A DNA stretch of 64,000 nucleotides, taken from positions 930,001-994,000 of the forward strand of contig NZ_CP114598.1 in the NCBI RefSeq assembly GCF_030848305.1, read 5' to 3'. Positions 38,428 to 46,537 of this stretch are shown here, in pieces. How positions within the stretch are numbered: the first letter of the stretch is position 1; every line of letters starts with the position of its first letter. The DNA comes from Akkermansia muciniphila (GTDB lineage: Bacteria; Verrucomicrobiota; Verrucomicrobiia; Verrucomicrobiales; Akkermansiaceae). The position numbers and the translations under genes were made by a program. The notes under the pieces are model-generated. The model ran no database searches and was not told where the DNA came from. It saw nothing but the letters and a program-made list of their open reading frames with translations.

Positions 38428-39591
38428 ATGACAAATACGCCTTTCAACAAACCGTACTTTATGATATCATGCGGTTACGGTTTTATGGGTTCCAGCGCTT
38501 TACAACAACAAGCCATTCATCTCGTCTTCGGCACGGATGAAGGAATGGTGCGTGAAAAGGCTTCCGGCATTTTTGCCGCTCTGACGGAAGGCACGAATGA
38601 ATTTTCCCATGAAATTCTGGAAGCGGTCTGCGGTGATTCCGATGAAGCGGCTCAGGTGGTACGCCAGGTTACGGAAGCTTTGCGGACCCTCCCATTTTTT
38701 CCGGGACGCAAAGTAGTCTGGATGAAGAACTGCAATTTTCTGGGAGACTCCGTCACGGGACGTTCTTCCACTACGGAAGCGGCTCTGGACTCCTTCAGGC
38801 AATTGCTGGAAAGCGGCCTGGGGCCGGACGTCCTGCTGCTTATTTCCGCCTCCGAATTTGACAAGCGCCGTTCCTTCAACAAATTCCTGCTTCAATCCGC
38901 CGTGTCGGAAGAATTGAACAAGCCGGACATCACCAAAGCAGGATGGGAAGGCAGTTTAATGCCCCTCATTAATAAGGAAACGGCGGTGCGAGGCATGAAT
39001 TTCGATTCCGCCGCCCTGGAACTGTTCATTCACCGCGTCAGCGAATCCTCCCGCCAAATCATTTCTGAAATTGAAAAACTGGATCTTTATCTGGGAGCGG
39101 ACAGACGCACCGTAATGCCGGAGGATGTAGAGCGCATGGTTCCGTTGACGCGTACAGGCGTTATTTTTGAAATTTCCCGGGCTCTGGAAAACAAAAAAAG
39201 CGACGCGGCTATCTCTCTGATTGACTTTCAACTGGAACGCGGTGAAAACGCCATCACCATCATGCGCGCCGCATTCATCCCTACTCTAAGGAATCTGCTG
39301 GCCGCCAGACTTTTATGTGACGCATTCAACCTGAAGCCCACCAATTTCAAGGAATTTACGGCCCGCATTTCTTCCCTGCCCTCTTATGCAGCCGCGTTAA
39401 TTCCCCTGAAAAAAGACGGCTCTCCCAATGCTTACCCGCTTTTTCTGGCGGCGCAGAACGCTTCCAAATTCAAGACGGAACGGCTGAAGCAAACTTTAAA
39501 AGAATGCATGAAGGCAGATAAAGCCCTAGTGTCCTCCTCTCTTGATCCCCGCCTGATTCTGCATCGTCTTGCCATCTGTTCCGCATCCTGA
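38428..39591 (+). CDS. holA: DNA polymerase III delta subunit
   Basis: A 387-residue clamp-loader subunit that opens the DnaN sliding clamp. N-terminal features include [19 protein letters not shown] and [18 protein letters not shown] central region ([19 protein letters not shown]) and the helical C-terminal collar domain ([22 protein letters not shown], then [16 protein letters not shown]) follow. Alternative starts at 38,461 or 38,485 are possible because the first 20 residues have no clear family counterpart. Its TGA shares one base with the mnmG start, so translation is coupled. Confidence 0.9.
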
Positions 39592-41477
39592 TGAACTCCT
39601 CCTCTTCTTCCGTTTTCCCCCTGTTTGACGTTCTCGTCGTCGGCGCCGGGCACGCAGGTATTGAGGCGGCGCTGGCAGCATCCCGTCTGGGGTGTTCCGT
39701 CGCCGTCCTGACCCATAACCTGGATACCATTGGGCAAATGTCCTGCAACCCGGCTATCGGGGGACTTGCCAAAGGGCATATCGTCCGGGAAATAGACGCC
39801 CTGGGCGGAGCCATGGGATTGAACACGGATGCCACCGCCATTCAATTCCGGATGCTTAACGCCTCCAAGGGACCCAGCGTGCGCGCTCCCCGCGCCCAGT
39901 GCGATAAAACAGCCTACCGCACAAGAATGAAAATGGTTCTGGAAACCGCCCCGGGCATACGCCTGTTTCAGGGAGATGTGGTCAGATTGCTCGTCAACGG
40001 GGAACAACAGGTAACGGGAGTTGTTACTTCTCTGGACTGCGCCATTCATGCCCGCAGCGTGATTATCTGCTCCGGGACATTCATGAAGGGATTGCTTCAT
40101 GTAGGCCTTCAGCACATAACAGGCGGCCGAATGGGTTGCGCTTCTTCCAGCCTTTCCGCCGATCTTGCCATGCTGGGTTTTCAGGTGGAACGGCTTAAAA
40201 CGGGAACTTCTCCCCGCGTCAATGGAAAGTCCATTGACTTTTCCGTCTGCGAAATGCAGCCTGGAGATACTCCGGAAGCCCTGTTCAGTTACCGTTCCCG
40301 CGATATACTGAAACGTGATTCCGAACCTTTTTGCACTTTGAACACATGGGGAGATGCAAATTTCCGGATGAAGCAAATGCCCTGCTGGATCACCTACACC
40401 AACCAGGCGACGCACGACATTATCCGGAAAAATTTAAAATTCAGCCCTCTTTACAGCGGTATCATTGAAGGCGTAGGCCCCCGGTATTGTCCCTCCATAG
40501 AAGATAAAATCGTGCGCTTTGCGGAAAAAACAAACCATCAGGTATTCCTGGAACCGGAAGGCCGCAGTACGGAAGAATTCTACCTTAACGGAGTTTCCAC
40601 TTCCCTGCCCTACTCCGCTCAGTGCGATTTTATTCATACCATTCCCGGTTTGGAAAAAGCGCAGCTGATCCGTCCGGGATATGCGGTGGAATATGACTTC
40701 TGTCCTCCTACGCAATTGCATCCCACACTGGAAACAAAACTGGTGGAAAACCTGTATTTTGCAGGTCAAATCAACGGCACATCCGGCTATGAAGAAGCCG
40801 CGGCGCAAGGTTTGATGGCGGGAGCGAACGCCGCCCTGAAAACCCTGGGCAAACCTTCTCTGGTGCTGCGCCGCGATCAGGCTTACATCGGCGTCATGAT
40901 AGATGACCTCGTTACCAAGGGAACCGATGAACCTTACCGCATGTTCACCAGCCGGGCAGAATTCCGCCTGCTGCTGCGCCAGGATAACGCAGACCTGCGG
41001 TTGGCCCCTCTGGCTTTTGAAACGGGCCTTATTACCCGTGAAACGGCCCGAAAAGCGGAAGACAGGAAAAACGCCATTGATGAAGGAATAACAAAAGCAG
41101 CCGCCCTCAAACACGAAGGGGTTTCTCTCTCCACATGGCTTAAAAGGCCCGGCAACGACTGGCCCCTATTGCCTGAAGAACTGAAAAAAATGTTCCACGT
41201 GGAACATTTGGATGCCATTGCCACGGATATACAGTACGAAGGGCATATTGAAAGGCAGAAAAAACAGGCGGAAAAAATCATACGGATGGAAAATAAAACT
41301 ATTCCCACCGATATTGATTACGAACATGTCCACGCCTTAAAAAAAGAGGCTGTCATCAAGCTGGGCAATATACGTCCCGCAACTATCGGACAGGCCTCCC
41401 GCATTCCCGGAATTACCCCGGCAGATATTGCCCTGTTGCTCGTGCATCTGCAAAAACGCAGCAGGCAGCAAACATAA
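39591..41477 (+). CDS. mnmG: tRNA uridine-5-carboxymethylaminomethyl modification enzyme MnmG (GidA)
   Basis: A 628-residue FAD protein that, with MnmE, modifies U34 of tRNAs reading split codon boxes. FAD motif [19 protein letters not shown] (about 17-35); [36 protein letters not shown] (GidA signature 1); [25 protein letters not shown] (signature 2); and the C-terminal helical MnmE-binding region are all present. A perfect parS palindrome is embedded at 41,191-41,206 and encodes the residues MFHVEH. GidA genes commonly sit beside bacterial replication origins. Confidence 0.97.
41191..41206. other. parS centromere-like site (perfect match)
   Basis: TGTTCCACGTGGAACA is a perfect 16-bp palindrome equal to the widespread chromosomal parS sequence bound by ParB. 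It lies inside the mnmG coding sequence, about 1.9 kb from the candidate origin. ParB loads at such sites, spreads, and with ParA and SMC segregates newly replicated origins. parA and parB themselves are not in the window. Confidence 0.9.
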
Positions 41478-41937: not shown

Positions 41938-43007
41938 TTAACGGTAACAGATATCTCCCCTGATGCACACATCATCTCCAAAGGCATTCACAACAGGCTG
42001 TTCAAGACAGGCTTCATGCTCCAGAAACGGACCGGACGCTACGCCGTCCGCACCGCCGCCGATAATGATGGGAGCATAAAATCCCACCCACTCATCGACC
42101 AAACGGGCTTTCAAGAATTCCCGGACCAGACAGCCTCCCGCTTCCAGAAGGAGAGTCCCTATTTTTTTATCATCATATAATTTTTTTAATAATTCCAAAT
42201 AATTAAAACATTCTCCACAATCAAGGTGCGGTCACGAAATTCATCCGTCAAACAAATGGAATCCGCAGGTATGGAAGCGGCATCACGGGTCAGAATAATA
42301 CGCCAGGGTTGTTCCTTGAGGAGAGAAACAGCACGATCCGGTTTCCTAATGGTCAGGGACGGATTGTCCAGACGAACGGTATTCCCTCCGGTGAGAACCG
42401 CATCGCATTCGGCACGCAGGGTATGTACAAAAGACCTGGATTTTTCATTCGTCAGCCATTGGGAGCGTTCCGGACTGCGGGAAATGCGGCCATCCAGAGA
42501 CATGGCGCTTTTTGCAATTACCCAGGGACGTCCTTCCAGCATGTTCAACCTGAATCCCCGGATTAAATGATCGCATTCCTTTTCCAGAACCCCGCGGGTA
42601 ACCTTGATGCCGGCCTGCTCAAGAATATCAGCCGCAGCGCCGCGGTGCTTGGGATTGGGGTCTTCCGAACCATAAACCACCCGTTTGAAACGGTATTGCA
42701 AAATAGCATCCGTACAAGGCGGCGTTTTTCCGGAAGTGCTGCATGGTTCCAGAGTAACATACAAAGTTGAATCAGCGAACAGGGCTGCATTGCCTCTCGC
42801 CACTCCGTCAGCAATGGCCTCTCTTTCCGCATGGGGCAAACCGGCTTTTTTATGAAATCCTGAACCGATTACCCGGTTTTCATGTACAATGACCGCTCCC
42901 ACGCAGGGATTCGGGCTCGTAAGTCCGATCCCATTTGAGGCCAGTTTTATGGCCATACTCATCCAACGGTCATCCTGGTTTTTCGTATTCACGCCGTTTT
43001 GTAGCAT
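41938..43007 (-). pseudogene. ribD: Riboflavin deaminase-reductase (ribD) interrupted by a frameshift
   Basis: The frame to 42,186 encodes the deaminase domain: HAEREAIADG and EPCSTSGKTPPC supply the zinc ligands. The first part of the reductase domain (KSAMSLDGRISR, LTGGNTVRLDNPSLTIR) follows. It stops at 42,186 just after ENVLIIWNY. The remaining reductase (MELLKKLYDDKKIGTLLLEAGG, then VDEWVGFYAPIIIGGGADG) continues in another frame from 42,198 to 41,938. Adding one base near 42,199-42,207 would give a normal protein of about 360 residues. RibD performs the second and third steps of riboflavin synthesis. The cause may be a genuine mutation, a sequencing error, or slippage at the A/T-rich run. 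The start is uncertain: ATG at 43,007, or GTG at 43,031. Confidence 0.85.
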
Positions 43008-43031
43008 GAAAACCGGAAGAAGGACAATCAC

Positions 43032-43215
43032 GTTGTGTGATTGAAGAATATTAGGTTTAACAATATTAAATTCCTTCTTCTTCTACCGTGTGTCTAGTGT
43101 GAATAAGATTTCAAATTGCTGAAAATGAAAGTATTAAACCTCATTCCAACTGTTAATAAATTTGGTCTGCAAAAATGTGGATAACATCTGAATAAGTTAT
43201 TCACATCATATTCGC
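43032..43215. other. Candidate replication origin (oriC) with DnaA boxes
   Basis: An AT-rich intergenic region with three matches to the DnaA-box consensus TTATNCACA: TGTGAATAA at 43,098-43,106 (minus), TGTGGATAA at 43,176-43,184 (minus, perfect consensus) and TTATTCACA at 43,197-43,205 (plus). The stretch 43,040-43,080 is especially AT-rich and could be the unwinding element. Supporting context: mnmG 1.5 kb to the left and dnaN 2.1 kb to the right, parS sites on both sides, and a change in strand composition across the region. dnaA is not visible in the window. Confidence 0.65.
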
Positions 43216-43324
43216 AGTTAATTGGCTTATTCTTTCACAGGGTTATTGGCAGGCGCGGCTGTAAAACAGATTCGCGCATTCCTCCTTGCAGAGGCCACGG
43301 AGGAAAGCATACCATTCTTTTGTG

Positions 43325-44251
43325 AAGGTTGCCAAATTGATTTATATTCCGGAGAGGGATCATACTTTTCCTGCTACAAGCCCTGAAGCGCCCTTCCACG
43401 GCTTTTCTGTGGCTGGAGTGAATATAGCCGCCTACTGCGCTGCCCGCCTTCGGGAGGCGGGCTTTGAAGCGGTTTTCGATCCGGAAACTCCGGTTTGGGA
43501 AGAAAAAGGGGAAATCATAGAGGTGTCCATGCATGATTTTTCCCCGGAGGCGGCCATATGGCTTGCCTCCTGCGGGGCAGGGGAGGCAAGGAGTGAAGAG
43601 GGGTATTTGCTGGCCCGGAAAGGCGGGGAAAGCGGATTGACGCGGGTATTCACGCGGAGGGAGGCAGCAATAGAGCGTCTCGTTTATCCCTGGGATCTGC
43701 TGGAATGGCAGGAAAAAGTGATGGAGAAGATGGAATGGGAGAATTTCTCCGGGGGGGAAGGGGTTTATGTTATGGGAGCGCTCCGGGTGGGGGACGGGAC
43801 CGTCATCATGCCGGGCGTGGTTGTGGAAGGGACCGTATGGGCGGGAGATGGCTGCCGCATAGGGCCTAATTGCCATTTGAGGGGTTATGTGTCTCTGGGG
43901 AATAACTGCGTAGTAGGGCAGGGAGTAGAACTGAAAAATTGTATTATCGGCGACGGCACATTGATCCCTCATTTGAGTTATGCGGGGGATTCCATCATTG
44001 GCAATGACGTTAACTTCGGCGCCGGAACGGTATGTTCCAATTTTCGCCATGATGGCGGCGAACACAAAATGATGGCGGGCGGGAGGCTGGAATTTACTGG
44101 AAGAAACAAGCTTGGAGCCGTCATTGGAAGCCATGTGCGGCTGGGCGCCAATACCGTTGTTTTGCCGGGGCGGGTTATTTCTCCCGGTACCTGGACCAGG
44201 CCGGGGGAAGTATTCACGGGGGACGTGAATGGCAGAATGGAAATTTCCTGA
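43325..44251 (+). CDS. Left-handed beta-helix (GlmU/sugar-1-phosphate nucleotidyltransferase-type) protein
   Basis: About 308 residues. The C-terminal half is a hexapeptide-repeat beta-helix (VYVMGALRVGDGTVIMPGVVVEG, GDGCRIGPNCHLRGYVSLGNN, CVVGQGVELKNCIIGDGTLIPHL, SIIGNDVNFGAGTVCSN, GAVIGSHVRLGANTVVLPG) as in the acyltransferase/trimerisation domain of GlmU and G1P thymidylyltransferases. The N-terminal half lacks a recognisable nucleotidyltransferase signature, so the protein may have only an acyltransferase or structural role. A GTG at 43,325 is the likely start; a TTG at 43,286 is also in frame. The coding strand is strikingly G-rich. Confidence 0.8.
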   Translation, partial: KVAKLIYIPERDHTFPATSPEAPFHGFSVAGVNIAAYCAARLREAGFEAVFDPETPVWEEKGEIIEVSMHDFSPEAAIWLASCGAGEARSEEGYLLARKGGESGLTRVFTRREAAIERLVYPWDLLEWQEKVMEKMEWENFSGGEGVYVMGALRVGDGTVIMPGVVVEGTVWAGDGCRIGPNCHLRGYVSLGNNCVVGQGVELKNCIIGDGTLIPHLSYAGDSIIGNDVNFGAGTVCSNFRHDGGEHKMMAGGRLEFTGRNKLGAVIGSHVRLGANTVVLPGRVISPGTWTRPGEVFTGDVNGRMEIS

Positions 44252-45110: not shown

Positions 45111-45214
45111 ATAAGGATATTGAAGAAATCTGATTCCCTGGAATGGATTTTTAAGAATGCTTAAATAATCTAAAAAACCTATTCATGCAAGATATGCCCG
45201 GAGAAATTACATAT

Positions 45215-45228
45215 TACTATATATAGTA
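45215..45228. promoter_or_regulatory. AT-rich 14-bp palindrome upstream of dnaN
   Basis: TACTATATATAGTA is a perfect palindrome 105 bp before the dnaN start. It may overlap a -10 element or be an operator. No consensus -35 is obvious at the right spacing. Confidence 0.35.
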
Positions 45229-45332
45229 TGCTTTTAAAAAAATACTGCCAAATATTAGGGTTTGACGGAGAAATGGCTTGAACTATGAAAGGCGGTTATG
45301 AGAAGATGCGAGGCAGATAAAAGCACAGACAC

Positions 45333-46433
45333 ATGAAGTTTACCATTTCCAAGCAAGTATTTCTCGACGGGCTGAGACAGGTTGCCAGCGTCGTGTCTTC
45401 CAAGACGACGCTGCCTATTCTTTCCAACGTCAAGATTGAAGCTGAAAACGGCCAGGTACGTTTTACGGCTACCGATCTTGACGTATGCATTACTGGCGTA
45501 GTTCCCGCGAATGTGCTGCGTGAAGGCTCCGTGACCCTGCCCGCTAAAAAGCTGGTGAGCATCATCAGCGAACTTCCTGAAGCCGAAGTTCAGGTGGATG
45601 TCAACCAGCGCAACCAGGCTGCTGTGGAATGCGGCCGCTCCCAGTTTAAGCTGAACGGCCTTCCGGCGGATGAATTTCCGGAATTGCCGTCCTTTGAACA
45701 GGCAACCGTGTACCAGGTGGACCAGAATGTATTGCGGGACTGCATCCGCCGCACGGAATATGCTATTTCCACGGATACGACCCGCTACGTGCTGAACGGC
45801 ATTTCCCTCTCCTTCCGCAACGGTAAAATGACCCTGGTGGCCACAGACGGCCGCCGTCTGGCGCTGGCGGAAACCGCCCTGGAATTCCCGGAAGAACAGC
45901 AGCTGGACGCTATCCTGCCCACCAAGGCTGTTGGTGAACTCCGCCGCCTGCTGGATGAAGTGGGAACCGCCACCATCCGTTTCACCCGCAACCAGGCCGC
46001 TTTTGAAATCAATGATACGTTACTGATCAGCAAGCTGATTGACGGCAATTACCCGAACTACCGCCAGGTAATCCCGACGGACTGCAAGGAAAGCATTGAA
46101 CTTCCCTGTGGAGAACTGCTGGAAACGGTGCGCCGTGTCTCCCTCCTTTCCGTGGACAAGAGTACGAATATCAAGCTGAACTTCCGTGAAAACGAGCTGG
46201 AAGTGGCTTCCAGTGCGGAAGGCGTGGGTGAAGCCCATGAATCCATGACGATCACTTATGCCGGAAGGCCGCTTTCCATTTCCTTCAATCCGGATTTCTT
46301 CATGGCTCCCCTGAAGACGATGGCCGGGGATACGATTATTACGCTGAATCTCATTGATGAAATGAGCCCGGGCGTCTTGAAGATCGGAGATGAGTTCCTG
46401 TATGTGCTCATGCCGATGAGATCTCCCAATTGA
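45333..46433 (+). CDS. dnaN: DNA polymerase III beta subunit (sliding clamp)
   Basis: A 366-residue protein of three similar beta-clamp domains (about 1-120, 128-245, 246-366). Recognisable segments include MKFTISKQVFLDGLRQVASVVSSKTTLPILSNVKIEA, LPADEFPELP, TRYVLNGISLSFRNGKMTLVATDGRRLALAE, LISKLIDGNYPNYRQVIP, SINPDFF-type SFNPDFFMAPLK, and the C-terminal YVLMPMR. It forms the ring that tethers polymerases to DNA and binds partners through the C-terminal cleft. dnaA and recF are not adjacent here, unlike the classical dnaA-dnaN-recF order. A strong terminator follows. Confidence 0.98.
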   Translation: MKFTISKQVFLDGLRQVASVVSSKTTLPILSNVKIEAENGQVRFTATDLDVCITGVVPANVLREGSVTLPAKKLVSIISELPEAEVQVDVNQRNQAAVECGRSQFKLNGLPADEFPELPSFEQATVYQVDQNVLRDCIRRTEYAISTDTTRYVLNGISLSFRNGKMTLVATDGRRLALAETALEFPEEQQLDAILPTKAVGELRRLLDEVGTATIRFTRNQAAFEINDTLLISKLIDGNYPNYRQVIPTDCKESIELPCGELLETVRRVSLLSVDKSTNIKLNFRENELEVASSAEGVGEAHESMTITYAGRPLSISFNPDFFMAPLKTMAGDTIITLNLIDEMSPGVLKIGDEFLYVLMPMRSPN

Positions 46434-46528: not shown

Positions 46529-46537
46529 TTATTCACA
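46529..46537 (+). promoter_or_regulatory. DnaA box next to parS
   Basis: TTATTCACA fits the DnaA consensus TTATNCACA. It is 4 bp from the parS-like site and 35 bp after the dnaN terminator hairpin. A single box outside the main cluster could titrate DnaA or belong to an extended origin. Confidence 0.5.

Follow-up and report, generated by a model that had tools for sequence, protein, structure and literature searches.

The DNA analysed here, referred to as the window, is a 64,000-nucleotide stretch (C1:930,001-994,000) of the complete, single-contig chromosome of Akkermansia muciniphila, which is 2,650,075 bp long. Near 43 kb of the window, an AT-rich gap separates ribD from a gene for a hexapeptide-repeat transferase, with mnmG and holA on one side and dnaN on the other. 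The features of this locus are as follows (window coordinates; the basis of each assignment is given in brackets):

38428-39591, plus strand: holA, DNA polymerase III delta subunit (Pfam DNA_pol3_delta)
39591-41477, plus strand: mnmG (gidA) (Pfam GIDA, TIGR00136)
41191-41206, no strand assigned: parS-like palindrome TGTTCCACGTGGAACA inside mnmG (parS consensus, at most 2 mismatches)
42186-43031, minus strand: ribD, whose upstream region bears the box cluster (Pfam deaminase and RibD_C)
43032-43260, no strand assigned: proposed oriC, the AT-rich gap between ribD and the hexapeptide-repeat transferase gene (GC content, skew, alignment)
43046-43087, no strand assigned: near-invariant AT-rich block GAATATTAGGTTTAACAATATTAAATTCCTTCTTCTTCTACC, proposed DNA unwinding element (conservation, low stability)
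43098-43106, minus strand: DnaA box R1, TTATTCACA, which is TTGTTCACA in several relatives (exact match, conservation)
43151-43159, minus strand: DnaA box R2, TTATTAACA here and TTATTCACA in most relatives (one mismatch, conserved)
43176-43184, minus strand: DnaA box R3, TTATCCACA, identical to the consensus (exact match, conservation)
43187-43195, minus strand: DnaA box R4, TTATTCAGA (one mismatch, conserved)
43197-43205, plus strand: DnaA box R5, TTATTCACA in the opposite orientation, invariant in 12 species (exact match)
43322-44251, plus strand: hexapeptide-repeat (GlmU-like) transferase gene, start codon uncertain (Pfam Hexapep, open reading frame)
45333-46433, plus strand: dnaN, sliding clamp (three Pfam DNA_pol3_beta domains, TIGR00663)

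DnaA boxes and an AT-rich block upstream of ribD

The original prediction had placed a candidate replication origin in this gap, describing it as AT-rich and as lying 1.5 kb from mnmG and 2.1 kb from dnaN. Its GC content is indeed 30% over 43032-43215, as against 55% for the whole window, and both distances agree with the end of mnmG at 41477 and the start of dnaN at 45333. The gap can be aligned in 12 Akkermansia genomes at 71-96% identity; a short gap match without ribD in one further genome (L055 in G011) was treated as spurious. The neighbouring ribD encodes 281 aa here, compared with open frames of about 350-390 aa in relatives: its RibD_C match covers positions 1-82 of 197, and the frame breaks off within the reductase domain. 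The break is located at 42,160-42,200 near a T-rich run, with what remains of the reductase domain continuing in a different frame (C1:972,019-972,198), and is either a frameshift mutation or a homopolymer assembly error.

Three exact matches to the DnaA-box pattern TTATNCACA are found at the sites first reported, namely 43098-43106 (minus), 43176-43184 (minus, TTATCCACA) and 43197-43205 (plus). That inventory was correct for these three boxes but missed two conserved boxes with one mismatch each, R2 and R4. DnaA-box clustering at the ribD gap, as expected of an oriC, is beyond chance: the window holds 4 exact boxes, while shuffled sequences average 0.84 and only 1 of 100 shuffles reached 4, and among the 51 exact boxes of the whole chromosome the three in the gap are the only trio that fits within 1 kb. 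The fourth exact box of the window (TTATTCACA) is at 46,529-46,537, just 3' of dnaN and outside the cluster. Elsewhere on the chromosome, the sole other pair of exact boxes within 100 bp is at C1:1,000,130-1,000,205, 27 kb from the proposed origin; both boxes are on the plus strand, apparently near the start of a gene, and the pair could be a titration or regulatory site.

The spacings between R1 and R5 (53-54, 25, 11 and 10 bp) are kept in relatives, and across 12 species the mean column identity is 0.970 for the boxes and 0.976 for the AT block, compared with 0.740 for the remaining gap. R1 to R4 are all oriented toward the AT block, while R5 points away from it. Next to the boxes, the 40-bp stretch 43045-43084 ranks within the least stable 0.15% of the window; by this stability rank and by its conservation, the adjoining AT-rich and easily melted element of an oriC can be placed at 43,046-43,087. 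We also applied the published DnaA-trio rule (a box with at most 2 mismatches, a spacer of at most 16 bp and at least 3 trios; PMC8287927) to the gap, which gives one weak match (R2, spacer 13, 3 trios) of a kind also present in 141 of 500 shuffles (28%). A DnaA-trio reading of the TTCTTCTTCTAC run in the AT block was rejected, its position relative to R1 departing from the published order of box, spacer and trio.

GC skew and the position of dnaA

GC skew was computed over the window and over forty 20-kb stretches sampled around the chromosome, rather than at every base. In the window, the cumulative minimum, where an oriC would be expected, falls at 42,995, about 40 bp from the gap, and the skew in 2-kb steps rises from -0.087 (41-43 kb) to +0.184 (43-45 kb). 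The shift in strand composition that had been predicted from three sampled lines is thereby borne out, and the G and C counts given for those lines are exactly correct. Outside the window, all 15 stretches sampled from 1 to 920 kb have negative skew and all 18 stretches sampled from 994 kb to 2.206 Mb have positive skew; the values are close to zero at 2.25-2.34 Mb and negative from 2.385 Mb onward. Thus, the gap sits at the single change from negative to positive, and the reverse change occurs near its antipode (2.298 Mb). No whole-chromosome minimum at any other place was seen, the 40 samples and the window together putting the change at the ribD locus. Skew at four-fold-degenerate sites, calculated per gene in the window, proved too noisy for use.

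Two further observations were made in the other half of the chromosome. The sample at 2.451 Mb has a skew of -0.34, which reflects a prophage and leaves the overall pattern unaffected: the region concerned (C1:2,451,001-2,468,000, about 17 kb) has an extreme skew of about -0.4 and encodes a phage head-to-tail connector (PF12236), hence we take it to be an integrated prophage whose strand bias is very strong. A dif-like site (TTCGCATAATATATGTAATGCAAAAT) is present at C1:2,261,323-2,261,348, at a distance of 37 kb from the point exactly opposite the origin; it is a weak candidate, having three mismatches to our own composite consensus, and the skew on its two sides (+0.008 and -0.005) is too small to interpret.

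The origin could instead be located at dnaA, at base 1 of the contig, with the ribD gap merely a site of DnaA binding. dnaA does often adjoin oriC, and A. muciniphila genome comparisons have taken dnaA as the origin, with genomes laid out from it (PMC6624636). The only dnaA of this chromosome is at C1:31-1398, 972 kb from the gap and from the change in skew; as originally predicted, there is none beside the candidate origin, nor is there one in the window. dnaA has negative skew to its left and to its right, with no change of sign: the contig was begun at dnaA and not at the origin. The same negative skew on both sides is found in five relatives (G001, G004, G005, G009 and G012), and DnaA boxes were not found to cluster near dnaA in this genome, G005 or any of 18 non-Akkermansia genomes. 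An origin at dnaA is therefore extremely unlikely. In most members of the family outside Akkermansia, dnaA is directly upstream of dnaN; a comparison of 36 Akkermansia genomes found this arrangement in none.

Conservation of the cluster and of parS among relatives

In the same five relatives, skew is negative to the left of the ribD locus and positive to its right. In G057, a divergent and complete genome, the sign changes within the interval 408-440 kb, which contains ribD (425.3 kb); dnaA is at 2,806 kb. Of 52 Akkermansia genomes, 47 carry at least four boxes within 450 bp upstream of the ribD match; among 20,000 control windows, 6 contain at least four, five of which probably derive from the G075 copy of the ribD-gap locus itself. 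In the five exceptions (G050-G053 and G069), no more than one or two boxes can be recognised upstream of ribD; these genomes possibly possess an altered DnaA-box specificity. An exact parS is kept close to ribD, at a few kb, in G050-G053.

Outside Akkermansia, the cluster upstream of ribD is found in a few sister genera: in G141, in G148, G154 and G155 (with two boxes in G157), and in Rubritalea marina. The members sampled from two other families (f2 and f4) and from several other genera gave no such cluster. Adjacency of mnmG and ribD is seen in several of the order's families. When skew was sampled coarsely in two complete non-Akkermansia genomes (G131 and G163), it was weak or changed sign several times.

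The palindrome TGTTCCACGTGGAACA is the one place in the chromosome that matches the parS consensus with at most 2 mismatches; it lies 1.9 kb from the gap, as expected of a parS near an oriC. Its exact form is present in 57 of 76 Akkermansia genomes, while a reversed control pattern gave 0 matches, and in 40 of the 46 genomes with listed sites an exact parS lies within about 15 kb on the contig that carries ribD.

Skew can place an origin to no better than a few kb, and the true origin might be in another gap nearby, for example the very AT-rich one before dnaN (45,113-45,332) or the one between mnmG and ribD, with the box cluster only an accessory. Both gaps are less stable still than the AT block, positions 42,168 and 45,204 being at the top of the instability list. 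Nevertheless, neither contains any exact box, and the cluster keeps its place where these neighbours have moved away: dnaN is 7-28 kb from the cluster in G061 and G057 (7 kb in G061, where mnmG is on another contig as well), and in both the cluster remains upstream of ribD, directly so in G061. We regard this placement as very unlikely. The original view of an origin next to mnmG and ribD holds for ribD (47 of 52 genomes) but not for mnmG as a conserved neighbour.

Since the cluster is immediately upstream of ribD and DnaA is able to act as a transcription regulator, the boxes might also constitute a DnaA-controlled ribD promoter, or a site of DnaA titration, and not an origin at all. Against this, the cluster coincides, in many species, with parS and with the one point at which chromosomal skew turns from negative to positive, and the probability we attach to such an explanation is extremely small. 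Regulation of ribD by the cluster could be an additional role.

The proposed origin and its relation to known ones

We conclude that the gap upstream of ribD (about 43,032-43,260) is almost certainly the oriC of this chromosome, and would be its single, bidirectional origin. This reading of the sequence is supported by the skew change, the sole near-consensus parS 1.9 kb away, the conserved box spacing, the skew in relatives and the linkage of the cluster to ribD. The location of the proposed oriC, its box anatomy and its conservation can be read directly from the genomes compared.

DnaA binding, the site of melting and bidirectional initiation are suggested by this anatomy together with established knowledge of oriC. 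DnaA, encoded 972 kb away, would bind the five boxes R1-R5, spread in the direction of the AT block, which is on the ribD side, and melt 43,046-43,087. Two forks would then travel to a terminus opposite the origin, and the parS inside mnmG would serve segregation of the origin via ParB.

In E. coli, oriC has an AT-rich element on one side, with the nearest boxes facing this element and a box of opposite orientation at the far end. The proposed Akkermansia origin resembles it in being away from dnaA, in having mnmG nearby (E. coli oriC is beside gidA/mnmG) and in a similar layout of boxes and AT element, the orientation of R1-R4 toward the AT block being like the left half of E. coli oriC. It differs in having five recognisable boxes in about 110 bp, in having ribD as its direct neighbour and in the distance to dnaA, which is about a third of the chromosome; no 13-mers of the E. 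coli type were recognised in the gap. With origins of the Bacillus subtilis type (BUS; PMC8287927, PMC10721633) it shares boxes that adjoin an AT-rich element, for which spreading of DnaA into the melted strand has been proposed, although the Akkermansia gap, unlike those origins, is not beside dnaA.

That origins can lie away from dnaA is already well known. For A. muciniphila YL44, the origin has been placed by Hi-C, parS, GC skew and coverage, in a study which used the identical parS consensus with 2 mismatches and stated that origin and dnaA may be separate (PMC10197239); the YL44 origin, so far as the available part of that report describes it, is very probably the same locus as the ribD gap. 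The position given in that part is at the level of a map and comes with no boxes, ribD link or comparison of species (PMC10197239). In another member of the Verrucomicrobiota, Methylacidiphilum infernorum, GC skew put the origin 250 nt upstream of dnaA (PMC2474590), hence dnaA-linked and ribD-linked origins would both exist in this phylum. Our literature search, which covered sources other than preprints, subscription papers and DoriC, yielded map-level statements on the Akkermansia oriC only, and none on its anatomy, its linkage to ribD or its conservation across the family.

A broader interpretation is put forward tentatively, as one that is possible but rather doubtful. In Akkermansia and some other Akkermansiaceae, the origin may have kept its place upstream of ribD irrespective of dnaA and of dnaN, two genes that come apart in this lineage, and the near-invariant AT block may be a lineage-specific unwinding element outside the published DnaA-trio order.

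A. muciniphila is a major gut bacterium, and a genome layout that takes dnaA as the start puts the origin wrong by roughly a third of the chromosome's length. An origin set at dnaA could bias peak-to-trough estimates of replication rate, gene-dosage corrections and Tn-seq normalisation. A short and exactly located oriC would offer a starting point for building origin-based plasmids and for testing DnaA binding in Verrucomicrobiota. It would also provide a natural case in which the origin stayed with a metabolic gene while dnaA moved elsewhere.
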